Source: a virus. From it: DNA of 25,312 nt. Below, one piece after another: positions 93-19,104 of the stretch (the stretch's first letter is position 1; each line of letters starts with the position of its first letter). Made by a program: the position numbers and the translations under genes. The notes under the pieces were generated by a model. The model ran no database searches, had not been told where the DNA came from, and worked only from the letters and a program-made list of their open reading frames with translations. The stretch covers positions 1 to 25,312 of IMG/VR virus record IMGVR_UViG_3300031885_000106. One strand, given 5' to 3'.

Positions 93-122
93 ATTATAAA
101 GGAAGTACCCTCACGAAGGCAA
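93..122 (-). promoter_or_regulatory. Sigma70-like promoter, GTTGCGG family
   Basis: Read on the minus strand: -35 TTGCCT (117-122), 18-bp spacer, -10 TATAAT (93-98). The element GTTGCGG lies at 130-136, exactly 7 bp upstream of the -35. The same arrangement recurs at five to six other promoters in the window. It would transcribe the partial gene at 1-69. Confidence 0.8.
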
Positions 123-154
123 CCGGGTTCCGCAACTGCTTTTTACGGGCGGTG

Positions 155-409
155 CTAGTTGCGATACGTCAGCATGTCCCTGGCAAGACTCGGGAAGAAC
201 CCCGTCGCTTCGTCGAGGCTTAGCTTGCAGCCGTGGCGGGCGGTCCAGCGCACAGTGTCCCACTCCGACGATGCGAGCTCGTCCGGCTGCGCCCCGATGT
301 AGGCGGCCCAGTCGCCGGCTCCGCCTCCCACAGCGACAACGGCAATTCCCATTCCGTTCGCGTTCCAGTAGCGGTGCCTCAAGTGTCCTGCCGGTCTTGG
401 ATCAGTCAC
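155..409 (-). CDS. Hypothetical protein, 84 aa
   Basis: GTG start at 407-409 preceded by AGGAGG at 6-7 nt spacing, and overlapping the stop of the upstream gene by 8 bp, so translation is probably coupled. The protein has a Gly/Ala-rich segment (residues about 20-36) and a C-terminal half ending in SLARDMLTYRN. I do not recognise a family. It is the last gene of the leftward operon that starts at 3146. The stop codon sits inside a CGCAACT/AGTTGCG inverted repeat (131-137 and 157-163), which may act as a weak terminator. Confidence 0.7.
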   Translation of the reverse strand: MTDPRPAGHLRHRYWNANGMGIAVVAVGGGAGDWAAYIGAQPDELASSEWDTVRWTARHGCKLSLDEATGFFPSLARDMLTYRN

Positions 410-731
410 GGGTGTCCTCCTTTACTATGTTGACCTCTTGGATCTCCGACGTAGTGACCACACGCGGGTGGCGTTGCAGTTCGAGATACATTCCCTTACC
501 GACCCACCAAGGCCGGATCATCGAGCCTCCAAACGTCGAACCGTTAACGCGGTAGCCATCGTACATCCCACCCACGATGTTGCCCTCGCGTGAGCAAAGG
601 TAGGTGTGGTTCTTGGTCTTCACCTCTGCTCGGTAGCCGACCGGTAAGTCGTTGAGGAACAAGCCAGTCATCGTGTCTAGCGACCGCAGGGCGGCGTTGA
701 TCTCTGGCGAAAGGTTAGGATGGTCTTCCAC
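402..731 (-). CDS. Hypothetical protein, 109 aa, small beta-rich
   Basis: The frame is open further upstream (to 857), but that part overlaps the zinc-ribbon gene at 733-1011. The best start is a GTG at 729-731 with GGAG eight bases upstream; a second GTG at 738-740 is also possible. The C-terminal half (GMYDGYRVNGSTFGGSMIRP, then GKGMYLELQRHPRVVTTSEI) looks like a compact beta-sheet domain ending in a VxTSxIxxV segment. From memory this resembles phage-encoded conserved hypotheticals, but no function is known to me. It sits between a zinc-ribbon gene and the gene at 155-409 in one operon. Confidence 0.75.
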   Translation of the reverse strand: MEDHPNLSPEINAALRSLDTMTGLFLNDLPVGYRAEVKTKNHTYLCSREGNIVGGMYDGYRVNGSTFGGSMIRPWWVGKGMYLELQRHPRVVTTSEIQEVNIVKEDTRD

Positions 732-732
732 G

Positions 733-1011
733 TTAGACACTCCGAGGTGGCGGCCCGCCCGATACAGGTAGCGGCCGTAGCGACTCGTCGACCTCCTGCT
801 TCCAACCACAGACACATGAGTGGGGGATCGATTGCAGGAATTGGTGCCCGTGACCACAGCGGTATGCTCGCTCCTCGTGGCTCTCGTCGTGGTGGTGTAG
901 CACGCCGTCGGGATCGTAGTACTGCTGCGTCGTCCAGCCAGATGAGGTCACGTACGTCGAGAAGAAGAAGTTGCTGCGACGACCTTCCCGCACACACTTA
1001 GGACACTTCAT
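733..1011 (-). CDS. Small zinc-ribbon-like protein, 92 aa
   Basis: Starts at the ATG at 1009-1011, preceded by AAGGAGGT, and not at an earlier in-frame ATG. The start overlaps the stop of the upstream gene (ATGA). The protein begins MKCPKC (C3, C6), has a central YYDPDGVLHHHD segment, then YRCGHGH (C52) and CVCGW (C66, C68). The paired cysteines suggest one zinc site holding a small beta ribbon. Similar CxxC...DPDG..HHHD...CGH proteins occur in phages as conserved hypotheticals (from memory). The target, whether nucleic acid or protein, is unknown. Confidence 0.8.
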   Translation of the reverse strand: MKCPKCVREGRRSNFFFSTYVTSSGWTTQQYYDPDGVLHHHDESHEERAYRCGHGHQFLQSIPHSCVCGWKQEVDESLRPLPVSGGPPPRSV

Positions 1012-1166
1012 CGGACCTCCTTCAACTCCTTTATTGCCTCTCGCACCTCCTCGATGGTCCTCTTCCCACAAATCTCCCGCCATGCCTGCACGAAGTCCGT
1101 GTCTGTCTCCCTGTGGAAACCGCCGTGCTTATGAGGTACGATACCTTCGCCCGTGTGGTTGCGCAT
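1008..1166 (-). CDS. Small hypothetical protein, 52 aa
   Basis: ATG at 1164-1166, four bases after the stop of the upstream gene; TGA stop overlapping the next ATG (ATGA). The protein begins MRNHTGEGIVPH and ends in an amphipathic basic helix (IEEVREAIKELKEVR), clearly protein-like with normal codon use. The ribosome binding site is weak, so translation probably depends on coupling to the preceding gene. It fills what would otherwise be an unexplained gap in the operon. Function unknown. Confidence 0.75.
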   Translation of the reverse strand: MRNHTGEGIVPHKHGGFHRETDTDFVQAWREICGKRTIEEVREAIKELKEVR

Positions 1167-1170
1167 CTGA

Positions 1171-1383
1171 CTACCCAATCTTGAACCGGAGGATGACGTT
1201 GCGGCTGTCGCGGTTCACGATCTCGATGACATCCGCCCCGTTCTCGTCTAGCTTGTAGTGAGTAGCTGTAAACGCACAAGCCTCGCTGAGCGTGTCTGCC
1301 TCACCCACGAGGGTGGTAGCTTCGGGGCCCTCCTCGAATGTGTCCCAGTGGTAGATGCCGTACTGCTTCGTTGGACGTTCCAC
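1171..1383 (-). CDS. Hypothetical protein, 70 aa
   Basis: GTG start at 1381-1383 with AGGAG eight bases upstream. The protein (MERPTKQYGIYHWDTFEEGP...) looks like a small alpha/beta protein: an aromatic N-terminal strand, a helix (EACAFTATHYKL) and C-terminal strands DVIEIVNRDS and NVILRFKIG. It begins one base after the preceding gene's stop. Family not recognised. Confidence 0.8.
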   Translation of the reverse strand: MERPTKQYGIYHWDTFEEGPEATTLVGEADTLSEACAFTATHYKLDENGADVIEIVNRDSRNVILRFKIG

Positions 1384-1384
1384 G

Positions 1385-1546
1385 CTAACTCTCCTGTGTG
1401 TAGTGCTCTCGGAGCCGTGCGTACAGGTAGTCGACGTAGCTCGACGAGGCGTAGCAGAGTAGCCAGTCGGCGAACTCTACGGCGGCTGGGGATGCCTCGT
1501 GGAGGACGAGCTCGAGACCCCTAAGCTCGACTCTGAAACCTCCCAA
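1385..1546 (-). CDS. Small hypothetical protein, 53 aa (TTG start or readthrough product)
   Basis: The open frame from TTG (1544-1546) to TAG (1385-1387) encodes GGFRVELRGLELVL, then a helical, aromatic C-terminus (AVEFADWLLCYASS...DYLYARLREHY). It is convincing as protein but has no good ribosome binding site. It lies in the same frame as the gene just upstream (1550-1720), separated only by its TGA and one sense codon. Either it starts at TTG by translational coupling, or the TGA is read through to make one longer protein of about 111 residues. Confidence 0.6.
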   Translation of the reverse strand: MGGFRVELRGLELVLHEASPAAVEFADWLLCYASSSYVDYLYARLREHYTQES

Positions 1547-1549
1547 GCC

Positions 1550-1720
1550 TCACACGGCGTCCAGGACGCTGAAGGGAACCTCGATCGTCAAGTCCGTTGG
1601 GATGGACAGGACGAACGGATCCTCAGGAGCTCGGCCAATGAGCTCTTCCTTGAGCCTCTCGTCGGCTTCGTCAATGCCGGCCGCATCGACCTCTATCTTG
1701 GCATGGTACGTATACTTCAT
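1550..1720 (-). CDS. Small hypothetical protein, 56 aa
   Basis: ATG at 1718-1720 with AAGGAGG eight bases upstream, and an ATGA overlap with the preceding gene. Sequence begins MKYTYHAKIEVDAAGIDEAD and ends PTDLTIEVPFSVLDAV: strand-helix-strand, possibly a small alpha/beta fold. It ends in TGA with the frame staying open afterwards (see 1385-1546). Function unknown. Confidence 0.75.
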   Translation of the reverse strand: MKYTYHAKIEVDAAGIDEADERLKEELIGRAPEDPFVLSIPTDLTIEVPFSVLDAV

Positions 1721-1914
1721 GTGTCCTCCTTCTCATGGACGAAGGCTGGGTGGGGACGAAAGCGCAGGAAGGCGATGCCGTCCAGACAGATCCAGACACG
1801 TCCGTCCTTCGCCACCTGGATACCGAAGTCTCCCGTGTAGGGGAAGCTCCCCTCTGGCGGCATGTTCTCGATGGTAACGATGCCGTACTGGTGCGTTTCG
1901 GGTAACTCCCGCAT
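1717..1914 (-). CDS. Hypothetical protein, 65 aa
   Basis: ATG at 1912-1914 behind an AGGGGGG ribosome binding site. Mostly short beta strands (YGIVTIENMP, DFGIQVAKDGRVWICLDG, AFLRFRPH), suggesting a small beta-barrel or SH3-like fold. Overlaps the next gene by ATGA. I do not recognise the family. Confidence 0.8.
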   Translation of the reverse strand: MRELPETHQYGIVTIENMPPEGSFPYTGDFGIQVAKDGRVWICLDGIAFLRFRPHPAFVHEKEDT

Positions 1915-1928
1915 GGTCGCCCCCCTAC

Positions 1929-1985
1929 CTACGGCTGACGTTCCCCTCTCCAGTTGTTAGCCGGAACCTCAACGTAGTATCCCAT
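1929..1985 (-). CDS. Candidate microprotein, 18 aa
   Basis: ATG at 1983-1985 with a near-perfect AAGGAGG ribosome binding site that overlaps the stop codon of the preceding 30-codon gene. Encodes MGYYVEVPANNWRGERQP and ends 14 bases before the next gene. The strong ribosome binding site and tight fit between two genes are the only evidence, and a leader role for the next gene is equally possible. Confidence 0.5.
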   Translation of the reverse strand: MGYYVEVPANNWRGERQP

Positions 1986-1994
1986 GTTGCCTCC

Positions 1995-2087
1995 TTACCA
2001 TGGCCACCTGACCAAGATCCACAGGAGCGTTGCGACTATCGTTGCGACAGCTCCGATGCCCGACCAGTCGCGGTGCTTTCGCCTCAT
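1995..2087 (-). CDS. Small membrane protein, 30 aa
   Basis: ATG at 2085-2087; its GGAGG lies inside the last codons of the upstream gene. The protein is a basic N-terminus (MRRKHRDW) followed by one hydrophobic segment (GIGAVATIVATLLWILV, about residues 11-27) and RWPW. This is a single transmembrane helix with positive-inside N-terminus. It could be a regulatory or inhibitory phage membrane peptide; no specific role can be read from sequence. Confidence 0.65.
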   Translation of the reverse strand: MRRKHRDWSGIGAVATIVATLLWILVRWPW

Positions 2088-2089
2088 GC

Positions 2090-2515
2090 TCAGTCCTCCA
2101 CGAAGATGACGTAGTAAGGCATTCCGCCTGGGAGGGTGCTCCACATGTCTCGAGGCATCAGGCACTTCGCGAGCTTCAGTCCGACCGCCAGGCAGAACAG
2201 CTGCTCCATCCGTAGGTGCAGTCCTGTCCACTGGCGTCCGTTCTCCTGGTTACAGGCGTTGAGGAAGCTCCAGCCATCCCCAACGTTCTGGCGGAACTTC
2301 TTCGGAAGTGCCCTGAGCCACATCGTCACCTTCGGCCGCTTGGCCTCCAGCCGTACGGGGTGGAACCCGAATGTGTTGACGATGCCCTGGACGACTACCG
2401 TCCCTTCAGGCGGCATCTTAGCCTGCGAGTCGAGTTCCTCATCTCTGTAGAGGCAGTCCCGAAAGGCCGCCTCGACCTCGCTGGGGTCTATAACAATTTT
2501 GTTATCGCTGGTCAT
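2090..2515 (-). CDS. Conserved-looking phage hypothetical protein, 141 aa
   Basis: Start set at the ATG at 2513-2515 because AAAGGAGG lies seven bases upstream, although the frame is open to 2560. Recognisable segments are AAFRDCLYRDEE (12-30), PPEGTVVVQGIVNTFGFHP (35-53), GWSFLNACNQENGRQWTG (95-115) and PRDMWSTLPGGMPYYV near the end. This pattern resembles a family of phage/bacterial hypotheticals I have seen without known function. No catalytic motif is evident. It is the second gene after the promoter at 3170-3199. Confidence 0.8.
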   Translation of the reverse strand: MTSDNKIVIDPSEVEAAFRDCLYRDEELDSQAKMPPEGTVVVQGIVNTFGFHPVRLEAKRPKVTMWLRALPKKFRQNVGDGWSFLNACNQENGRQWTGLHLRMEQLFCLAVGLKLAKCLMPRDMWSTLPGGMPYYVIFVED

Positions 2516-2538
2516 GTGACCTCCTTTCTTCGACCCTC

Positions 2539-2612
2539 GTCTAGAGACTGGGTAGTACACCGAGGTCCTCTCGTCGTCGTTTATGGCACAAAGCCTATTC
2601 CAGTCTCTAGAC
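2539..2612. repeat. 13-bp perfect inverted repeat with 48-nt loop
   Basis: GTCTAGAGACTGG (2539-2551) and CCAGTCTCTAGAC (2600-2612) are exact reverse complements. The pair straddles the stop codon of the gene at 2607-3146 and the leader of the gene at 2090-2515. It could form an intercistronic RNA hairpin affecting termination, processing or translation of the second gene, or be a protein-binding site. Confidence 0.7.
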
Positions 2613-3146
2613 CGGAGTCGAAGTCTCCTTCGGTGTGGGGTTCACCGTTTTGCTGGACGAACCGCCAGAGCTTCGGCTGTACAGCACTACTGGGCGCTGA
2701 CATCGGTCGGCGACGTTTTGAGCGATCTCGTCACCCCGATCGAACCTGCCGATAACACTTCCGGGGCGGTCGATGTAGAGGACGTTCTTGATCGTACGTG
2801 TCACACCCTCAAACTCCCAGCGCTCTCCGACCACTACGAACGTACGGTGCTTGTCGCGGACGTCGATGTCGGTGTCTGCGAAGAGGGCCTCCGAGTTGGA
2901 TTGCCACGGCCCTGTGAGTACCTTGACGCTCCCATCGACGAGGCGGAACTTCAACGTGTCACCGCCGAAGCCGCGTGGGTAATCCTTTGGGGAGCCCTCG
3001 ACGTAGATGTGGTCGGCCTCGCCCTCCATCGAGTCGGTGCTCACGAGCCACGTACGTCCCGTCTTGCCGACGACCTTACGGTACGTACGCTCTTCGGCCA
3101 TAGCCGCGGCCGAGACCATCCCTTGGTGAGGTACTACATAGTCCAT
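2607..3146 (-). CDS. Conserved-looking phage hypothetical protein, 179 aa
   Basis: ATG at 3144-3146 with AAGGAGA 7-8 bases upstream; first gene behind the promoter at 3170-3199. Recognisable blocks are WLVSTDSMEGEADHIYVEG (about 33-51), LKFRLVDGSVKVLTGPWQSN (65-84), ALFADTDIDVRDKHRTFVVV (about 87-106), and a C-terminal part with IGRFDRGDEIAQNVAD and YSRSSGGSSS. The blocks look conserved and globular, and resemble a hypothetical family found in phages of several hosts (from memory). No enzyme motif can be assigned. Confidence 0.8.
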   Translation of the reverse strand: MDYVVPHQGMVSAAAMAEERTYRKVVGKTGRTWLVSTDSMEGEADHIYVEGSPKDYPRGFGGDTLKFRLVDGSVKVLTGPWQSNSEALFADTDIDVRDKHRTFVVVGERWEFEGVTRTIKNVLYIDRPGSVIGRFDRGDEIAQNVADRCQRPVVLYSRSSGGSSSKTVNPTPKETSTPV

Positions 3147-3169
3147 TCGATGCTCTCCTTCCTGCCCTT

Positions 3170-3199
3170 ATTATAAATGGAGAGCTACGCTCAATGCAA
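3170..3199 (-). promoter_or_regulatory. Sigma70-like promoter, GTTGCGG family
   Basis: Minus strand: -35 TTGCAT (3194-3199), 18-bp spacer, -10 TATAAT (3170-3175). Upstream lies CCCGG, then TTTGCCA (3207-3213), which aligns with the GTTGCGG element of sister promoters at the same 7-bp distance. It drives the operon from 3146 down to 155. Confidence 0.8.
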
Positions 3200-3225
3200 C
3201 CGGGTGTGGCAAAAGTAGTTGCGGA

Positions 3226-3393
3226 CTACAGGTGGTCCCACTGATACGGCCTGTCGCATCGAGCACACCAGCCGTAAGCCGACGTCGCCCAGACACTACC
3301 TGGTGGAATAGCGACGGGTCCTACACGCATCGTGCCGAGTACGGTCACGACCGGCTGATGCAGTCCGAGCTTGCAGAGTATCCACCCTAGCAT
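3226..3393 (-). CDS. Small zinc-binding protein, 55 aa (DUF1660-like)
   Basis: The ATG at 3391-3393 was chosen because GGGAG lies seven bases upstream; the frame extends to 3462 but there it overlaps the gene at 3405-3602. The protein is MLGWILCKLGLH (C7, H12) followed by GWCARCDRPYQW (C43, C46). An N-terminal C-x4-H and a C-terminal CxxC are typical of the short phage/bacterial proteins grouped as DUF1660, which probably bind one zinc ion. The assignment is by pattern only. Confidence 0.7.
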   Translation of the reverse strand: MLGWILCKLGLHQPVVTVLGTMRVGPVAIPPGSVWATSAYGWCARCDRPYQWDHL

Positions 3394-3404
3394 GTCACGA
3401 CTCC

Positions 3405-3602
3405 CTATTCGACCTCTACGTACTCCATCGTGAGCTGAAGCAGTTCGTCGTACGAGTGGCATCGCGTCGCCTTCCCCATGTACTCGGTAGCTGCCTCTCG
3501 CATGTCGGCGTCCTTCAACGCTCGGGAAACGAGCCCCATGATCGTGAAGGCGTTCCCGTCCTCCCCCACGAGCTTACATGGGGGCTTCTCAGTACGGTCC
3601 AT
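3405..3602 (-). CDS. Conserved-looking hypothetical protein, 65 aa
   Basis: ATG at 3600-3602 with GGGAGG six bases upstream. Contains KLVGEDGNAFTIMGLVSRAL (about 10-29), then an Ala-rich helix and YDELLQLTMEYVEVE at the C-terminus. This pattern is one I associate with a small, mostly helical protein family common in phages and bacteria, function unknown. Part of the operon from 4135. Confidence 0.85.
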   Translation of the reverse strand: MDRTEKPPCKLVGEDGNAFTIMGLVSRALKDADMREAATEYMGKATRCHSYDELLQLTMEYVEVE

Positions 3603-3616
3603 TCGTTCCTCCCTTC

Positions 3617-3817
3617 CTAGTGCTCAACGAGCAATCGATCGGTAGGCCAAGATGTGACGCGTGCGCCCGTTAACGCGATGCGGCCGACGATCTTCCCGCC
3701 GTGCCAGCCCTCGAGCTTTGCGTCTGACGCCCCCGAGGTGTCGATGATCACTCCCTCAGACGGGAGTCCCACGTTCTCCGAGTAGAACTCCATGTGGAGC
3801 AGTCTTGGCTCCGTCAT
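3617..3817 (-). CDS. Hypothetical protein, 66 aa
   Basis: ATG at 3815-3817 with GGGAGG six bases upstream. The sequence (MTEPRLLHMEFYSENVGLPS...) shows alternating strands: VIIDTSG, KIVGRIALTGARV. The first 63 bases overlap the end of the upstream gene in another frame. Family not recognised. Confidence 0.8.
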   Translation of the reverse strand: MTEPRLLHMEFYSENVGLPSEGVIIDTSGASDAKLEGWHGGKIVGRIALTGARVTSWPTDRLLVEH

Positions 3818-3995
3818 GTCGCCTCCCTACCTTTGCGTCCTCCTTACGGAGGTGGTGGGCCACTGCGCCAGGGCGGGTGTTAACCTCGCGACCGCGTTTC
3901 CCTGCAACCCCAGCGCAGCGAGCCCATGTGTGCGGGCGTTTGGGCTTCGCCTCCACAGCGGGTTTTGTAACCCGAACGTATGGGTGCTTCCCCAT
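3756..3995 (-). CDS. Possible hypothetical protein, 79 aa, basic
   Basis: ATG at 3993-3995 overlaps the previous gene's stop (TAATG) and has GAGGTGA upstream, so initiation by coupling is likely. The protein is strongly basic (MGKHPYVRVTKPAVEAKPKR...) and rich in Arg, Lys and Gly with little predicted structure. It overlaps the next gene by 62 bp, which is unusual here; the true product may be shorter or affected by a frameshift. No family recognised. Confidence 0.5.
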   Translation of the reverse strand: MGKHPYVRVTKPAVEAKPKRPHTWARCAGVAGKRGREVNTRPGAVAHHLRKEDAKVGRRHDGAKTAPHGVLLGERGTPV

Positions 3996-4135
3996 TAGTC
4001 ACCTCGTCCCTTGCAGCCCACCTCGTGCTGCGTTATGTGTCGGCCGCAGATGGGTTGGTCGCACGCCTTACACCTGAGTGTCGTTAGCTGAACACACTCA
4101 GGCCAGCGGAGACACCTGATCAGTCTCTTCATCAT
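3995..4135 (-). CDS. Small zinc-finger protein, 46 aa
   Basis: Starts at ATG 4133-4135 (a second ATG follows at once), behind AAAGGGGG. The protein begins MMKRLIRCLRWPEC and continues RCKACDQPICGRHITQHEVGC: C22, C25, C30, H33, H37 and C41 follow C8 and C14. Eight Cys/His ligands in 46 residues suggest two zinc sites; CxxC-x4-CxxH-x3-H-x3-C recalls AN1/RING-type treble clefs. Such tiny zinc proteins in phages may act as transcription or protein-interaction factors (inference). First gene after the promoter at 4155-4185. Confidence 0.75.
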   Translation of the reverse strand: MMKRLIRCLRWPECVQLTTLRCKACDQPICGRHITQHEVGCKGRGD

Positions 4136-4154
4136 CTCGCCCCCTTTCGACTAT

Positions 4155-4185
4155 ATTATACCCCAGCCGTCCCCCGACAAAGCAA
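4155..4185 (-). promoter_or_regulatory. Sigma70-like promoter, GTTGCGG family (variant)
   Basis: Minus strand: -35 TTGCTT (4180-4185), 19-bp spacer, -10 TATAAT (4155-4160) followed by ATAG. CTCCCGG precedes the -35, as in the promoter at 7246-7275, but the upstream element is degenerate (GTGTAGG, 4193-4199). It would transcribe the operon 4135-3226. Confidence 0.75.
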
Positions 4186-4419
4186 CCGGGAGCCTACACA
4201 GTGGCTTCGGATCTGCGAGAGACAGTGAGAGAGAGAGTGAGTTAAAAAATATATACCCCCTTATATAAATTATTACTGCACAATCGATTTCGCAGAGCTT
4301 CTTCCGTTATAGTATATATTTTTTTGTACACTGTCTCTCTCTCTCTCTCTAATAGGTCGGCAGCTACTCTTTCTATTGGAGACAGTGTGCCGACCTCCGA
4401 GAGAGTGACTCTCTCAAAG
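4186..4419. other. Non-coding A+T-rich block with GA/CT inverted repeats (candidate replication origin)
   Basis: No convincing gene is seen. GAGAGACAGTG (4217-4227) is the exact reverse complement of CACTGTCTCTC (4329-4339), and both sit in GA or CT runs. Between them lies an A+T-rich stretch with long A/T tracts (4242-4328), unlike the G+C-rich genes around it. To the right are AGGTCGGCA (4354-4362) / TGCCGACCT (4388-4396) and a 7-bp hairpin with a TGA loop, GAGAGAG/CTCTCTC (4399-4415). A melting-prone core flanked by structured arms between two operons suggests a replication origin. A structured non-coding RNA is the main alternative. Confidence 0.45.
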
Positions 4420-4698
4420 CTACTGGCACTGGCAGAGACCCGCTGCGCACACCGGCCCCTTCCCCGCAGCGTCGTAGTTTGCCTCCGTAATAGCCCTACC
4501 ACAACAGCTGCAGGTGAACTCCGCCTGCGGCTCCGTATGGTCTCTGTCTCTCTGCCGGCGCTTGGCATTGTACTCCTGGTTGTACACTACCGTACGCCGT
4601 ACTATCTGCTCCTTGTTCTTGAGGTAGTAGCCCCTGTGGTAGAGCTTGCGCCGGCGTACCCGTTCCTGCTCCTTGGTCAGGACCTCCTCTGCTGTCAT
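4420..4698 (-). CDS. Basic protein with C-terminal Cys cluster, 92 aa
   Basis: The ATG at 4696-4698 was chosen because CAGGAGG lies six bases upstream; the frame also contains a GTG at 4761 with no good ribosome binding site. Residues 11-54 form a basic, Tyr-rich helical region (RVRRRKLYHRGYYLKNKEQI), of a kind often found next to zinc or HNH-type domains. The C-terminus holds C63, C65, C66, C84, C89 and C91, probably binding zinc. This suggests a nucleic-acid-binding protein; no nuclease motif is visible. The Y/K/R-rich region is loosely similar in style to the SEKGK-repeat proteins nearby. Confidence 0.7.
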   Translation of the reverse strand: MTAEEVLTKEQERVRRRKLYHRGYYLKNKEQIVRRTVVYNQEYNAKRRQRDRDHTEPQAEFTCSCCGRAITEANYDAAGKGPVCAAGLCQCQ

Positions 4699-4767
4699 GT
4701 CGGCCTCCTGCGCAAAGTGCCTCCGTACGAGTTCCCCCAATAGACTGTGCCTCTTTTGCACTGTCGT

Positions 4768-5208
4768 CTAGTTGTCTAGCCCCCTTTCGTCCCACATGAA
4801 GCCTCTGCCCCCACCAGCAGTAATACCTCCCGTAGTGACGTCAAGGATGACTTCGTGGTCTTCACCGTCGAACCAGTGAATGCTCACCTCGGTGTCTGGG
4901 AAGGCACACTTGACCAGCTCCAGCGTGATTAGGTTCATCCGGAGCTGCGGAAGGATCCCCTGGAGCTCCTTCAGCATCAGGCGTGCCTTCAGGTGCGACT
5001 CGGGAGGTAGTTCGTCGTCGAAGTCTTCTTCGGAGACGAACGTGTAGTCCTCGTGACTGACTCCGTCTGCTCCGTCCCAGGCGGTCTGGACGAGAACATC
5101 CAGTGCGTCTGCTCTGTCGTACGCGTCGAACTCTTCTGGAGTTTCGAAGTCGCACTCGACCACCTCGACTCCGAGGACCCGCTTGAAGTTGAACCGTTTG
5201 GCCCTCAA
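4768..5208 (-). CDS. Hypothetical protein, 146 aa, acidic
   Basis: TTG start at 5206-5208, five bases after a full AAAGGAGGT ribosome binding site. The N-terminus is basic and short (MRAKRFNFKRVLG), the middle strongly acidic (DFETPEEFDAYDRADALDV, FVSEEDFDDELPPES). The C-terminal half looks like an alpha/beta fold (MNLITLELVKCAFP, VSIHWFDGEDHEVILDVTTG) and ends in a Gly-rich tail. I do not recognise it. Second gene of the operon starting at 5470. Confidence 0.8.
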   Translation of the reverse strand: MRAKRFNFKRVLGVEVVECDFETPEEFDAYDRADALDVLVQTAWDGADGVSHEDYTFVSEEDFDDELPPESHLKARLMLKELQGILPQLRMNLITLELVKCAFPDTEVSIHWFDGEDHEVILDVTTGGITAGGGRGFMWDERGLDN

Positions 5209-5221
5209 TCGGTACCTCCTT

Positions 5222-5470
5222 TCACTCTGGGATGACTACCATCATCCCGAGGTACTCCCCGTAGTGGGTTACGCCACACGGCGATCCGTCCGCCTTCTCC
5301 GTGTGTCGATTACCCAAGCAGAGTGTGTTCGGGTTGTCAGCAGTCACTCTCTCCCCGCAACCGGGGCATGTCCATTTGATGAACACAAGAGCTCTCGGCT
5401 TTTCAGCCAGGAGCTTGTTCGCCCTCCGTATGAGGTCGTCCCTGTGAATGTCGTTCACCTTCTCGGGCAA
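5222..5470 (-). CDS. Zinc-ribbon protein, 82 aa
   Basis: TTG start at 5468-5470 behind AAAGGAGGT. After an N-terminal helical part (residues 6-24, DIHRDDLIRRANKLL) comes WTCPGCGERVTADNPNTLC (C35, C38, C51), H56 and C65, a plausible zinc-binding set. The IKWTCPGCGERV and HTEKADGSPCG blocks look like a phage hypothetical family I have seen annotated without function. First gene of its operon, with a leader nearly identical to that of the gene at 6947-7204. Confidence 0.8.
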   Translation of the reverse strand: MPEKVNDIHRDDLIRRANKLLAEKPRALVFIKWTCPGCGERVTADNPNTLCLGNRHTEKADGSPCGVTHYGEYLGMMVVIPE

Positions 5471-5476
5471 TGCCTA

Positions 5477-5518
5477 CCTCCTTTCGGTTTGTTACCTCTC
5501 TATCCTATCTATATTGTA
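5477..5518 (-). promoter_or_regulatory. Conserved transcript leader
   Basis: The leader from -10 to ribosome binding site matches that at 7211-7251: a 17-bp identical block, AACAAACCGAAAGGAGG on the minus strand, plus a matching TAGGATAG block. A shorter version precedes the gene at 7455-7733. Conservation beyond the ribosome binding site suggests duplication of the promoter-leader unit or selection on the leader. Confidence 0.6.
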
Positions 5519-5548
5519 ATTGTACTACGCCCTCGCCGACTATGTCAC
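5519..5548 (-). promoter_or_regulatory. Sigma70-like promoter, GTTGCGG family
   Basis: Minus strand: -35 GTGACA (5543-5548), 18-bp spacer, -10 TACAAT (5519-5524); a second TACAAT lies at 5513-5518. GTTGCGG (5556-5562) is exactly 7 bp upstream of the -35, which decides between the two -10 candidates. Drives the operon 5470 to 4420. Confidence 0.7.
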
Positions 5549-5569
5549 CCCACCTCCGCAACAAAGGTT

Positions 5570-5600
5570 GAGCCCACCTGCTGGGCCGACAGGTGGGCTC
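5570..5600 (-). terminator. Hairpin terminator after SEKGK-repeat gene 1
   Basis: GAGCCCACCTG (5570-5580) and CAGGTGGGCTC (5590-5600) form an 11-bp perfect stem with a 9-nt loop, just past the stop of the gene at 5638-6072. Only a weak T-rich tail (CCTTTGTTG on the minus strand) follows. Confidence 0.65.
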
Positions 5601-5637
5601 TGGGCGAGAGGGACGAGAAGTGGTGGCGGGATGGACG

Positions 5638-6072
5638 CTAGAACTCCTCGTCGGGCTCTTCGGTCTCGGACTCCTCAGGCTCTTCGGAGGCTGTCGCCTC
5701 TCCGGGTATGCTGGCCTCAGCCTTTGCGGCTGCCTTCTCGACGGCACGCTTGGCACGCCAGCGAGCCTGGGCTTCCTTGTACTTCGGCGACGTCATGTAC
5801 TTGGCCCGCGCCGCCTTGCCGGCCTCGGATTCCATGTACTTCTTCCGGGCGGCCTGGCCCTTCTCGGAGCTCTGGTAGGCCTTTCGGGCCTCCTTCGCCT
5901 TTTCCGACTGCATGTACCTGTCTCGGGCCTCCTTGCCCTTGTCGGACGTCATGTACTTGTTGCGGGCTGCCAGGCCCTTTTCCGACGCCTGATACCGCTC
6001 ACGGGCTATATCCGACTTGGTCTTGCCCTCTTCACCCTCCGTGGGGGTCTGGGTCTCACTCTCTGATGTCAC
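5638..6072 (-). CDS. SEKGK-repeat protein 1, 144 aa
   Basis: GTG start at 6070-6072, AAGGA nine bases upstream. Residues 30-107 are six back-to-back 13-residue units with consensus SEKGKxARxxYMx (for example SEKGLAARNKYMT, SDKGKEARDRYMQ, SEKGQAARKKYME), preceded by a degenerate unit. Units are 39 bp at DNA level with no indels. The repeat is highly charged, helical and basic on balance, and is followed by a basic segment and an acidic tail (125-144). Two paralogues lie at 6342-6791 and 8064-8315. Similar repeats occur in small phage and bacterial hypotheticals (from memory), with no function I know of. A nucleic-acid or protein-scaffold binding role is an inference from composition. Confidence 0.85.
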   Translation of the reverse strand: MTSESETQTPTEGEEGKTKSDIARERYQASEKGLAARNKYMTSDKGKEARDRYMQSEKAKEARKAYQSSEKGQAARKKYMESEAGKAARAKYMTSPKYKEAQARWRAKRAVEKAAAKAEASIPGEATASEEPEESETEEPDEEF

Positions 6073-6114
6073 GGGTCACCGTCCTTTCTACTTCCTAATT
6101 CAAATCCTACACCT

Positions 6115-6143
6115 ATCATACCCCATCTAGTCCCCACATGCAC
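6115..6143 (-). promoter_or_regulatory. Promoter for SEKGK-repeat gene 1
   Basis: Minus strand: -35 GTGCAT (6138-6143), 17-bp spacer, -10 TATGAT (6115-6120) followed by AGGTGTAGG. The -10 context resembles that of the divergent promoter at 6271-6300. No GTTGCGG element is present at the expected distance, so this call is weaker than the others. Confidence 0.5.
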
Positions 6144-6263
6144 GGTGTTTCCCCCTTATGATTGTTGCGGCTTCGCTGCCCGTGCGATTTACCGAGGGTT
6201 GTCAGTCACGCACAACCGTACGACGTTGGCGTGGATTTGTCACGTTGGCGAAATTCGTTGCGG
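6144..6263. promoter_or_regulatory. Divergent control region between SEKGK genes 1 and 2, with direct and inverted repeats
   Basis: Between two back-to-back promoters lie ACGTTGGCG at 6223-6231 and again at 6242-6250 (19-bp spacing), the inverted repeat GGTTGT/ACAACC (6197-6202, 6212-6217), and GTTGCGG at 6164-6170 and 6257-6263. The spaced direct repeats next to the -35 look like operator half-sites. No gene is seen here. Confidence 0.45.
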
Positions 6264-6270
6264 CCCCAGG

Positions 6271-6300
6271 TTGACGCGGTCGGAGTGGATAGGTTATGAT
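6271..6300 (+). promoter_or_regulatory. Promoter for SEKGK-repeat gene 2, GTTGCGG family
   Basis: -35 TTGACG (6271-6276), 18-bp spacer, -10 TATGAT (6295-6300). GTTGCGG (6257-6263) is 7 bp upstream of the -35, as in the minus-strand promoters. The gene starts about 40 bp downstream. Confidence 0.8.
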
Positions 6301-6341
6301 ATAGGTAGGTAAAGAGAAGAAGACCGGAAAGGAGGTGAATC

Positions 6342-6791
6342 ATGTCCAAGCGCAGAGGTAAGAAGGGTCACACAGCCCCAATCGAGGAGCCCGTCGAGAC
6401 GACGCCCGAGACCCCCGCTACCATGAGCCAGGACGAGAGGGGCCTGGACGAGATAGAGGAGGAGCTTCAGGCCTCCGAGACGGAGCTTGAAGAGGAGCCT
6501 GTTACCGAAGCCGCTGTGGAGGCCGTAGCCGTCGACAAGTCGAAGCTCAGCCACTACCAGCGGAACAAGGCCTCGCACGCCAAGTACCAGGCGTCCGAGA
6601 AGGGGAAGGAGGCCAGGACGAGGTACATGGCCTCCGACAAGGCGAAGGCGACCCGTGCATCCTACCACTCGAACCGCCGTGCAGCCCTCAAGCTCCTGAA
6701 GGAGGCCCAGAAGGCCGCTCCAGAGCTGATGGCCGCAGCGGCGATCATCGAAACCGCCGAAATCGGCTCGGAAGAGCCTATCGAGGCGTAG
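6342..6791 (+). CDS. SEKGK-repeat protein 2, 149 aa
   Basis: ATG at 6342 behind AAAGGAGGTGA, a near-perfect match to the anti-Shine-Dalgarno sequence. A basic start (MSKRRGKKGH) is followed by a long acidic region (15-60), then YQRNKASHAKYQA (72-84), SEKGKEARTRYMA (85-97) and SDKAKATRASYHS (98-110), and a hydrophobic Ala-rich helix (111-137). LSHYQRNKASHAKY aligns with VSHYKMYTAAHKKY of the third copy, so these two are closest relatives. The unit is monocistronic: own promoter (6271-6300) and a hairpin right after the stop. Acidic and basic halves may make it a scaffold or histone-like protein, which is inference only. Confidence 0.85.
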   Translation: MSKRRGKKGHTAPIEEPVETTPETPATMSQDERGLDEIEEELQASETELEEEPVTEAAVEAVAVDKSKLSHYQRNKASHAKYQASEKGKEARTRYMASDKAKATRASYHSNRRAALKLLKEAQKAAPELMAAAAIIETAEIGSEEPIEA

Positions 6792-6798
6792 TCGGACA

Positions 6799-6828
6799 GC
6801 CCCCGTACACAACCCGCCGTACGGGGGC
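6799..6828. terminator. Hairpin between convergent genes
   Basis: GCCCCCGTAC (6799-6808) and GTACGGGGGC (6819-6828) form a 10-bp perfect G+C-rich stem with a 10-nt loop, 8 bp after the stop of the gene at 6342-6791 and downstream of the convergent gene at 6947-7204. There is no good T-run on either side. The rest of 6829-6946 is rich in CCGTAC motifs but holds no gene. Confidence 0.6.
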
Positions 6829-6946
6829 GTCCCTCTGCCGTACTCTTGCGGTACCGTACCGTACTCCGACCGTAATAGGTAGGTTCGCCCCGTAGGACAG
6901 GTAAGGCCGGTCTCCGTTGTCGGCCGTCGTCGGTGTTTGTCGGTTC

Positions 6947-7204
6947 TTAGCTAGTCTTGCAGGCCTCGCAGTCACCCTCTTCAGGACACTGTGCGTCGTG
7001 ATCGTCTTCCCAGATGTTGAGGATGTCTGCTAGCATCTCCCGTATCAGCCCCTCCGTGCCGTTGTCGGCTTGTCCGTTCTGTACGAAGTGCCGACGGAGC
7101 GACTCTATTCTGACCGACAGGTCCTCTGGGAGGTCCAGTACGACCCGCCGTGTCGGCCCGTACGGCCCCCTCGGCCCCCCTTCCGTTCCCCTCTGCTCTT
7201 CCAT
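6947..7204 (-). CDS. Ribbon-helix-helix-like small protein, 85 aa (possible DNA-binding regulator)
   Basis: ATG at 7202-7204 behind AAAGGAGG. After a Gly/Pro-rich N-terminus, RRVVLDLPED (19-28) could be the ribbon strand, LSVRIESLRRHFV (29-41) helix A and GTEGLIREMLADILNIW (49-65) helix B. This matches the ribbon-helix-helix layout in order and length, with no invariant residue to prove it. The C-terminus adds CPEEGDCEAC (C73, C79, C82), a possible metal site. If it is a repressor, its own promoter and the sister promoters are natural targets (inference). Monocistronic, from the promoter at 7246-7275. Confidence 0.65.
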   Translation of the reverse strand: MEEQRGTEGGPRGPYGPTRRVVLDLPEDLSVRIESLRRHFVQNGQADNGTEGLIREMLADILNIWEDDHDAQCPEEGDCEACKTS

Positions 7205-7210
7205 TCCAAT

Positions 7211-7251
7211 CCTCCTTTCGGTTTGTTCTAATCTATCCTACCTATATTATA
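7211..7251 (-). promoter_or_regulatory. Conserved transcript leader (second copy)
   Basis: Nearly identical to the leader at 5477-5518, including the 17-bp block at 7211-7227 that holds the ribosome binding site, and the block next to the -10. Confidence 0.6.
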
Positions 7252-7275
7252 CGACACCGTAGCCGCAAACAGCAA
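7246..7275 (-). promoter_or_regulatory. Sigma70-like promoter, GTTGCGG family (variant)
   Basis: Minus strand: -35 TTGCTG (7270-7275), 18-bp spacer, -10 TATAAT (7246-7251) followed by ATAGG. CTCCCGG precedes the -35, and the upstream element is partly matched (GTTACTG, 7283-7289). Drives the gene at 6947-7204. Confidence 0.75.
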
Positions 7276-7380
7276 CCGGGAGCAGTAACAGTTGTTACGT
7301 GGCTCACCGTGCACCGACACACGCAGCATCGTATGTCGGCTGCTAACGTATGTCGTACTGTGCTCCGACAAAGCTGCGCA

Positions 7381-7427
7381 GCAGGAGGCAGACGAGCTAG
7401 GCGGGGGGCTCGTCTGCTGCTTCCTGC
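7381..7427 (-). terminator. Long hairpin terminator after lipoprotein gene
   Basis: GCAGACGAGC (7388-7397) pairs with GCTCGTCTGC (7408-7417). The stem continues with GCAGGAG (7381-7387) and TTCCTGC (7421-7427), apart from a 3-nt bulge and one G-U pair. It lies about 28 bp past the stop of the gene at 7455-7733 in its direction of transcription. Nothing else is seen in 7290-7454. Confidence 0.65.
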
Positions 7428-7454
7428 CGAAAGAAGGATGCCTACTTCATAGGG

Positions 7455-7733
7455 CTATTCTCCCTGCATCAGGTTGTCGAACGATACGCATCCACGTACG
7501 TCGTTGGCGATCCACCACCAGACTTCGTCTTCCTGGCAATCGCCTTTGCGTTCCAGACAGAACGCCGTCTCGTTCGCCTTGGAGACGAACAGGACGTCGC
7601 CGGCCTTGCACTTCGGACTGTCGGCTCCTTCGTCGTAGTTCGGTACGTACGGGAACGTACAGCCTACGACAGCGATCGTAGCTACGACTAGCGTAGCTAG
7701 GAAAGCTCTCCATTGCCATCTCCTACGGTGCAT
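7455..7733 (-). CDS. Putative lipoprotein, 92 aa
   Basis: Start set at ATG 7731-7733 (AAAGGAGA eight bases upstream), although the frame runs to 7757. The N-terminus is a lipoprotein signal peptide: MHRRRWQWR, a hydrophobic core (AFLATLVVATIAVV) and the lipobox VVGC with the lipidated Cys at 25. The mature part has four more Cys (KCKAGD, FCLERK, DCQEDE, GCVSFD), enough for two disulfides, so it should be surface-exposed and folded outside the membrane. Phage lipoproteins expressed alone from their own promoter often block superinfection (for example Ltp of phage TP-J34), which is a reasonable but unproven guess. Confidence 0.8.
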   Translation of the reverse strand: MHRRRWQWRAFLATLVVATIAVVGCTFPYVPNYDEGADSPKCKAGDVLFVSKANETAFCLERKGDCQEDEVWWWIANDVRGCVSFDNLMQGE

Positions 7734-7773
7734 CCTACTCTCCTTTCGGTTGTCCAACCCTATTCATACTTAT

Positions 7774-7803
7774 ATTATACTACACGGGATCCGCAAACAG
7801 CAA
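7774..7803 (-). promoter_or_regulatory. Sigma70-like promoter, GTTGCGG family
   Basis: Minus strand: -35 TTGCTG (7798-7803), 18-bp spacer, -10 TATAAT (7774-7779), and GTTGCGG (7811-7817) exactly 7 bp upstream of the -35. Drives the lipoprotein gene; its leader ends CAACCGAAAGGAGAG, like its sisters. Confidence 0.85.
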
Positions 7804-8009
7804 TACGGTTCCGCAACGTTTGTTTCGGGCCCTACCGTGTTAGGATGGGAAGCGTACCGTAATAGGCTGCCCTTAGTATCAGTAGTAAGCTTCTGAAGGA
7901 TGGAAGGATGCTTCTGATCGATTAGCAGCATACTACTTACTGTAGTGATAGGTAGTATACTTCCAATAGGGAGCTGAATGGCTCGGTAAAATTGGGGATG
8001 AATGCTCTC

Positions 8010-8063: not shown

Positions 8064-8315
8064 GTGACTAAGAATAAGTTGCAAGCTTCCATCAGCAAGA
8101 AGGCAGAAGAGGGATCGGCTCAGGTGAGCCATTACAAGATGTACACAGCAGCTCACAAGAAGTATGAAGGGAGTGAGAAGGGAAAGGCTGCAAGGTCCAA
8201 GTACATGAACTCCGAGAAGGGAAAGGTCGCTCGGAAGAGGTACCAGCAGAAGAGAAATGAGCTTGTGAAGGACGCTCTCAGGATGGTCAGGGAGTCTGGA
8301 GTTGAGCTAAGCTGA
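8064..8315 (+). CDS. SEKGK-repeat protein 3, 83 aa
   Basis: GTG start at 8064 behind AAAGGAGGG. Contains YKMYTAAHKKYEG (24-36), SEKGKAARSKYMN (37-49) and SEKGKVARKRYQQ (50-62), then a helical C-terminus (NELVKDALRMVRESGVELS). It is the shortest of three paralogues and lacks the acidic regions of the other two. Codon use is visibly less G+C-rich than in copies 1 and 2, suggesting a different history. It stands alone between its own promoter and a very strong terminator, the layout of a phage moron. The stop codon lies in the loop of a 9-bp hairpin (8304-8324). Function unknown. Confidence 0.85.
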   Translation: MTKNKLQASISKKAEEGSAQVSHYKMYTAAHKKYEGSEKGKAARSKYMNSEKGKVARKRYQQKRNELVKDALRMVRESGVELS

Positions 8316-8369: not shown

Positions 8370-8406
8370 GTTTGAACGAAAGGAAGTATGCTTCTGATCT
8401 AAGCGG

Positions 8407-8534
8407 GATAGGGAGAAGAGTGATGTGTTGGGAGGAGAGTGATGAGTTGGGAGGAGAGTGATAGGATAGGAGGAGAGTGATAGGATAGGAGGAGAGTGAT
8501 GTGTTGGGAGGAGAGTGATGGGGAGGAGAGTGAT
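8407..8534 (+). repeat. Array of 19-bp tandem repeats, about seven units
   Basis: The core GAGTGAT occurs at 8418, 8437, 8456, 8475, 8494 and 8513, each exactly 19 bp apart, and at 8528 after a 4-bp shorter unit. Consensus is TGGGAGGAGAGTGATRDGT, purine-rich on the plus strand. Variable positions are mostly after GTGAT (GTGT, GAGT, AGGA). The array is non-coding and lies about 180 bp before the terminase small-subunit gene, where packaging sites are often found. It might also be an iteron-type protein-binding array. Confidence 0.9.
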
Positions 8535-8656
8535 GATTGGGGGGTGCGAAATAATCATGAGCCTTATTATAAGATTCATCGGCGGGGCCTCGTACAAATT
8601 ATGGGGGGTGGCCTGCGGCTTCTTTGCCCCCCTACATACCACGCCCGACAAGACCC
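8535..8656. other. Non-coding segment between repeat array and terminase promoter
   Basis: No gene is supported. It holds a G6/C6 inverted repeat (8603-8608, 8627-8632) and an isolated TATAAT on the minus strand (8566-8571) with no good -35. This is a plausible location for part of a packaging (cos or pac) site, but no cut site can be read from sequence. Confidence 0.35.
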
Positions 8657-8685
8657 TTGCCAATTACTCGCGTAGGGCCTAGAAT
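8657..8685 (+). promoter_or_regulatory. Probable late promoter
   Basis: -35 TTGCCA (8657-8662), 17-bp spacer, -10 TAGAAT (8680-8685), about 30 bp before the terminase small-subunit start. It is the only good plus-strand promoter seen upstream of the morphogenesis operon. Confidence 0.6.
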
Positions 8686-18685: not shown

Positions 18686-19104
18686 AAGAGATCGCCGACC
18701 CTGTAGCTGCGCTCGTCGCCTATCTGCGATCGCAATCAGAATTCGCCGACCTTGTTGGAGCAGAGCACATCTACGGTGATAGCCTACCTTCGCAGGCCGG
18801 TATGCCGCGTAAGGCCGTTACTATACGCCACGCAGGCGGGGGCGGCAGAGAACTCTACTTGCCGATCATTCGTCCGAGACTTGAGGTCCGCTGTTACGGC
18901 GAGACCGATCGTGAGGCTTCCAGAGTGTTCTGGGCTCTGTACAGCATCTTGAACGGGCAGTGCAATCTCATTGCGAATGACACCCGACTCATGTCGGTGC
19001 TATTCGACGCGGGGCCGTCTGCACTACAGGACGAGACGCTGAACACCCCATTTAAGTTGGGATACCTAGAGGTTATCAGCCAACAGGAACTTGTGACCAC
19101 GTAA
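18682..19104 (+). CDS. Tail terminator protein, 140 aa
   Basis: ATG at 18682 overlapping the previous stop (ATGA). Begins EIADPVAALVAYLRSQSEFADLVG and continues IYGDSLPSQAGMPRKAVTI, PIIRPRLEVRCYGETDREA and FKLGYLEVISQQELVT. This is the order and length of the lambda gpU/HK97 gp11-type tail terminators, which cap the tail tube at its proximal end. Position before the major tail protein agrees. Confidence 0.8.
   Translation: MKEIADPVAALVAYLRSQSEFADLVGAEHIYGDSLPSQAGMPRKAVTIRHAGGGGRELYLPIIRPRLEVRCYGETDREASRVFWALYSILNGQCNLIANDTRLMSVLFDAGPSALQDETLNTPFKLGYLEVISQQELVTT

Follow-up and report, generated by a model that had tools for sequence, protein, structure and literature searches.

Do the GTTGCGG elements that recur ahead of small genes in this viral DNA mark the sites of a dedicated regulator, and if so, is that regulator the phage's own? 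The window is the whole IMG/VR record, 25,312 bases in length with 58% G+C, and is probably a fragment of a phage genome. From about 8.7 kb onward the plus strand carries an HK97-type structural set (terminase, portal, protease, capsid, tail terminator, tail protein and tape measure), and the first 8.7 kb is made up of small ORFs, mainly on the minus strand, almost none of which have family matches. Megablast found no match to the window among phage records, and a search for relatives of the portal found none. The relatives of the capsid, terminase and tape-measure proteins are distant (~29-39% identity) and point to no host.

A common promoter form in the non-structural arm

Seven promoters in the 8-kb arm share the form GTTGCGG-NN-CCCGG-TTGC-N18-TATAAT (Table 1), all of them ahead of small non-structural genes. 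The original prediction had placed perfect copies of GTTGCGG at 136, 5562 and 7817 on the minus strand and at 6257 on the plus strand, with degenerate versions at 3213, 4199 (19-bp spacer) and 7289, and each is found as described, all four perfect copies lying upstream of the -35 at a distance of 7 bp, with a spacer of 18 bp. The CCCGG said to be frequent in the intervening N7 is exact in four of the seven segments. The -35 is usually GGTTGC instead of TTGACA, with the -10 being the standard TATAAT. A weak promoter near 6120 has the left arm alone upstream, with GTTGCGG missing. In keeping with the earlier separation of the two kinds of promoter, the element is absent from the probable structural-gene promoter at 8657-8685, such that the structural genes would be timed separately.

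Table 1. Element promoters and related features of the window (arms as described in the text)
Feature	Coordinates	Strand	Left arm	Right arm	Core	Direction or gene
P93	93..148	-	CCGTAAA 148-142 (gap 5)	GTTGCGG 136-130	CCCGG 127-123, -35 TTGCCT 122-117, -10 TATAAT 98-93	off the contig's left end
P3170	3170..3224	-	CCGCAAC 3224-3218 (gap 4)	TTTGCCA 3213-3207 (degenerate)	CCCGG, -35 TTGCAT, -10 TATAAT 3175-3170	ahead of minus ORF 2607-3146
P4155	4155..4210	-	CCGAAGC 4210-4204	GTGTAGG 4199-4193 (degenerate)	CCCGGTTGC, 19-bp spacer, -10 TATAAT	
P5519	5519..5573	-	GCTCAAC 5573-5567	GTTGCGG 5562-5556	no CCCGG, -35 GTGACA, -10 TACAAT tandemly repeated TACAATTACAAT	ahead of minus ORF 5222-5470
P6257	6257..6300	+	clear arm absent	GTTGCGG 6257-6263	-35 TTGACG, -10 TATGAT	plus ORF 6342-6791 (SEKGKA-type repeat protein), downstream
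P7246	7246..7300	-	ACGTAAC 7300-7294	GTTACTG 7289-7283 (symmetric GTAAC-N4-GTTAC)	CCCGGTTGC, -10 TATAAT	ahead of RHH-like ORF 6947-7204
P7774	7774..7828	-	CCGAAAC 7828-7822	GTTGCGG 7817-7811	-35 TTGCTG, extra TTTGCGG 6 bp past -35 start, -10 TATAAT	ahead of lipoprotein-like ORF 7447-7719
Structural-gene promoter (probable)	8657..8685	+		upstream element absent	TTGCCA-N17-TAGAAT	
85-aa ORF, possibly ribbon-helix-helix	6947..7204	-				downstream of P7246; no other link to element

The motif count that had been proposed as a check favours the arrangement. Across the full window the pattern GTTGCGG-N7-[TG]TG-N20-22-TAnnnT has four matches against none in 200 dinucleotide shuffles. The heptamer GTTGCGG by itself is found 10 times where 3.5 would be expected, so that the significance lies in the fixed arrangement. 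The extended -10 TATAATATA was observed four times in the window against 0.01 expected. A matrix built from the 18-bp block and the -10, with the site under test left out of the training, recovers six of the seven sites at 25-40 bits, the shuffle maximum being 18.5; the site at 5562, with its duplicated TACAAT and no CCCGG, was not recovered, and the 17-kb structural region holds no score above 10.1 bits.

Within the 18-bp element the mean pairwise identity of the sites is 0.68, as compared with 0.38 for the spacer and 0.33 for the sequence beyond the element, further upstream, which argues for binding sites under selection and against recent copying. This bears on the improbable alternative that there is no regulator, the promoters being copies of one strong early-promoter cassette in which the upstream block is left over from duplication or is read by RNA polymerase itself. 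P7246 and P7774 have spacer sequence and ACAACCGAAAGGAGG-type leaders in common and are therefore probably copies of each other, such that at least some of the promoters would be duplicates; the other spacers, however, are unlike, and their divergence disfavours a duplicated cassette. The block is moreover G+C-rich, unlike an UP element, has dyad symmetry, and is found again in a second contig ahead of unrelated genes (see below).

Recurrence in a second contig and wider scans

A search of 2.9 million viral contigs for the perfect element with the extended -10 returned a single contig, IMGVR_UViG_3300031885_001671 (28 kb; G001). Since one match is about what a rough estimate of chance would give, this contig was tested further. 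The first G001 site, ahead of an HTH_17 gene, has CCCGG, TTGC, ATAAGCAG and a GGAGG leader at the proper positions and a spacer of 17 bp to its -10, and scores 40.3 bits with a matrix built from the window only; the second, ahead of a GTP cyclohydrolase I gene, scores 23.2 bits, with 300 shuffles reaching at most 20.5. Tetranucleotide usage in G001 correlates with that of the window at r = 0.911, whereas none of 58 other phage loci exceeds 0.566. No protein is clearly common to the two contigs because their contents differ, with replication and 7-deazaguanine genes in G001 and structural genes in the window; the contigs probably represent the two halves of related genomes.

With the G001 sites included, the distance from the site to the -35 is constant in nine of nine while the spacer is 17, 18 or 19 bp, indicating that the -35 determines where the element lies. 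Recurrence of the same site at several promoters, always at one distance from the -35, thus exceeds chance, and the suggestion that it is a phage-wide regulon site is well supported by this fixed geometry, by conserved elements beside diverged spacers and by recurrence in a contig of the same lineage.

Elsewhere the near-consensus unit was found in no other viral contig and in none of 84,980 species genomes. None of the matches to CCCGGTTGC-N18-21-TATAATATA elsewhere in viral and genome contigs, and none of 26 stretches with a looser form, has GTTGCGG with fewer than four mismatches at the proper distance, and further pattern scans of viral contigs and genomes returned only G001 or chance matches, as did BLAST of single promoters against phages (chance matches only). 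These genome scans disfavour the reading in which a host transcription factor recognises the site and the phage has joined a host regulon. Phages do exploit host regulators, and a host factor with weaker sites, or an unsampled host, may have escaped the scans, but we regard a host regulon as very unlikely.

In G001 a uracil-DNA-glycosylase domain is fused to a family A DNA polymerase (L091 4112-6499). This fusion, together with QueC, QueE and FolE homologues, suggests 7-deazaguanine in G001 DNA.

The upstream dyad and the predicted regulator

An inverted partner, CCGnAAC, overlooked in the original prediction, lies 4-5 bp upstream of GTTGCGG at six of the seven window sites with varying quality. 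The resulting 18-bp dyad CCGnAAC-N4-GTTGCGG, in which GTTGCGG is the usual right arm, has its centre 16.5 bp ahead of the start of the -35 (~-52.5). The -35 itself carries a third half-site, GTTGC, which follows the first by 13 bp rather than by the 14 bp given earlier for the TTGC repeat. The idea of two direct half-sites, one over the -35, was correct as far as it went but incomplete, the upstream half-site usually being a dyad arm as well.

Alignment of the nine sites (seven in the window, two in G001) places GTTGCGG in direct orientation at -14 from the -35 start in seven, a direct GTTGC-like copy at -1 also in seven, and inverted CCGCAAC at -25 in five, with at most two occurrences at each of the other scanned offsets. 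In an unbiased scan of 130 dyad centres, -16.5 ranks first with 0.508 complementary (mean 0.237, SD 0.068; ~4 SD), and the left arms are nearer to CCGCAAC than are random early-arm windows (P 0.0002) and closer to it than to permuted motifs (P 0.009). Taken together, these results point to CCGnAAC-N4-GTTGCGG-NN-CCCG-GTTGC as the likely unit. The left arm is one base further out at 93-136, is missing in two of the nine sites (6257 and G001 17026) and lies 4 bp too far upstream at G001 6329 (gap 8). A search for covariation between the arms found none, P7246, with GTAAC facing GTTAC, being the single suggestive case.

From the sites, their geometry and their recurrence we infer a dimeric, phage-specific protein that would bind beside the -35 and aid RNA polymerase at the element promoters, a reading to which we assign a probability of about 0.5. 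RNA polymerase carrying the main host sigma factor would read the promoters of the non-structural genes, with the predicted dimer occupying the dyad, reaching the half-site on the -35 and either recruiting RNA polymerase or replacing the contacts of sigma region 4, such that the non-structural gene set would be switched on together.

As to the direction of control, an activator is more likely than a repressor. A fixed upstream site combined with weak -35 boxes is typical of activator-dependent promoters, although a centre at ~-52.5 is not the commonest activator position and counts against this reading. The perfect -10 boxes and near-standard spacers mean that the promoters might work unaided, and the activator reading is further weakened by the missing and misplaced left arms and by the absence of the dyad in Bacillus phage BSP7 (see below). 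In the main rival, which we think unlikely although it is the least so of the alternatives, the dyad and the -35 half-site would be operators at which a phage repressor, acting in immunity or early-gene shut-off, blocks RNA polymerase. Dyad operators with a half-site over the -35 would fit a cooperative repressor, but 7 bp separate the end of the dyad from the -35 and the right arm is invariant in position, whereas repressor operators usually vary in place. The perfect -10 and near-standard spacer would also suit such a repressor, as would the extra TTTGCGG just past the -35 in two promoters, yet repressor operators tend to overlap the -10 or the start, and at 5519 and 6257 the -35 half-site is lost to TTGAC-like boxes while the outer site is perfect. 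The scanned parts of the two contigs, both of which are fragments, yielded no integrase or CI-like gene.

The product of ORF 6947-7204 had been put forward as a candidate for the regulator, a proposal that is unsupported. It has no Pfam or PHROGs match, its AlphaFold model from the single sequence has a mean pLDDT of 63 with two helices and the strand not formed, and it has no homologue in G001 (both contigs being fragments). Likewise, no regulator of the element was recognised in these two fragments.

Bacillus phage BSP7 and known promoter classes

The replication genes of G001 match those of a cultured relative, Bacillus phage BSP7, and of Weizmannia phage Youna2, with the order largely kept and ~25-45% protein identity. 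In BSP7, the word GGGTTGCC is followed by a -10 at promoter distance in four of four cases (0.01 in mononucleotide shuffles) and CGGGTTG in five of six (0.05 in mononucleotide shuffles). GGTTGC at the -35 together with a -10 occurs six times in BSP7, four times in the window and once in G001 against twice in 80 control phage loci (1.2 Mb), a ratio that is approximate because the control loci differ in G+C. The extended -35 is common to BSP7 and the window lineage well above background. The GGGTTGCC promoters of BSP7 resemble those of the window in the extended -35 GG(G)TTGC, the 17-18-bp spacer, TATAAT and their place in the replication region, but both GTTGCGG at -14 and the dyad are absent and the upstream flank is A+T-rich. 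Related phages therefore hold the unit to different extents, with two sites in G001 and the -35-proximal part only in BSP7; no GGTTGC-form promoter was found in Youna2. The half of the unit next to the -35 looks ancestral to a wider phage group that includes BSP7, and the upstream dyad looks specific to the window and G001 lineage. A tentative and rather doubtful extension is that a common, undescribed phage factor in the lineage including BSP7 would replace normal -35 reading with the extended GG(G)TTGC, the window and G001 branch having added the upstream dyad for a second, dimeric contact. A search for a regulator common to G001 and BSP7 or Youna2 showed that BSP7_044 (HTH) matches a Youna2 protein, with no match in G001 or the window. 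A literature search on BSP7 promoters found no paper. The BSP7 class with the extended -35 GGGTTGCC lies at 18961, 22780, 27457, 27548, 31096, 33771 and 34256.

Judged from their sequence, the window promoters are filed as a phage promoter class with its own predicted regulator site, in principle like the CII and P2 systems though failing the sequence tests of both. P2 late promoters, activated by Ogr or P4 delta, have a dyad near -55. The likeness lies in a dyad upstream of the -35 and in several operons being switched by one phage protein (here predicted). The P2 late promoter consensus, TGT-N12-ACA (PMC3931495), serves structural genes, whereas CCGnAAC-N4-GTTGCGG stands ahead of non-structural genes and is missing at the structural promoter. 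The element promoters have no TGT-N12-ACA dyad near -55, and no match to the zinc-finger Ogr family was found in the proteins scanned from these incomplete genomes. In T4 middle promoters (MotA box, AsiA), a standard -10 is combined with a phage box including TTGC that replaces the -35, the MotA box being centred near -30; here, TTGC stands at normal -35 spacing with the dyad upstream. The CII promoters of lambda and P22 (pRE, pI and paQ) are alike in their direct TTGC repeats at the -35, weak -35 and phage-encoded activator (here predicted). The CII site is TTGCN6TTGC (PMC2629481), in contrast to TTGC-N9-TTGC here, with a period of 13 bp instead of 10 and the second TTGC being the -35 itself; an extra inverted arm also creates an upstream dyad, and there are seven or more sites against three for CII. 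TTGC-N6-TTGC flanking the -35 was not found at the element promoters, and no Pfam CII match occurs among the proteins scanned from the window early arm and G001 (fragments).

The element provides a way to approach gene timing in an uncultured phage lineage, and contigs that belong together can be linked through the matrix, as was the case for G001. As the extended -35 is common with a Bacillus subtilis phage, the idea is testable in an ordinary laboratory host. It is otherwise one further example among known phage promoter classes with a dedicated regulator site, not a new kind of switch.

Several further features of the window were observed. Short tandem repeats GGAGGAGAGTGAT lie at 8400-8540, in the stretch that separates the early arm from the structural promoter, and a 12-pair terminator-like hairpin at 5600-5570 adjoins P5519, its downstream end being overlapped by the left arm of the dyad. 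The SEKGKA-type repeat proteins are small and basic, with three paralogues (5638-6072, minus; 6342-6791, plus; 8064-8315, plus), all weakly matching phrog_10829. Among them the copy at 6342 alone has an element promoter, that at 8064 having a strong promoter, TTGTAA-N18-TATAAT, without the element. The product of ORF 7447-7719 (minus), which is served by P7774, is small and has both a signal sequence and a lipobox-like VGC.
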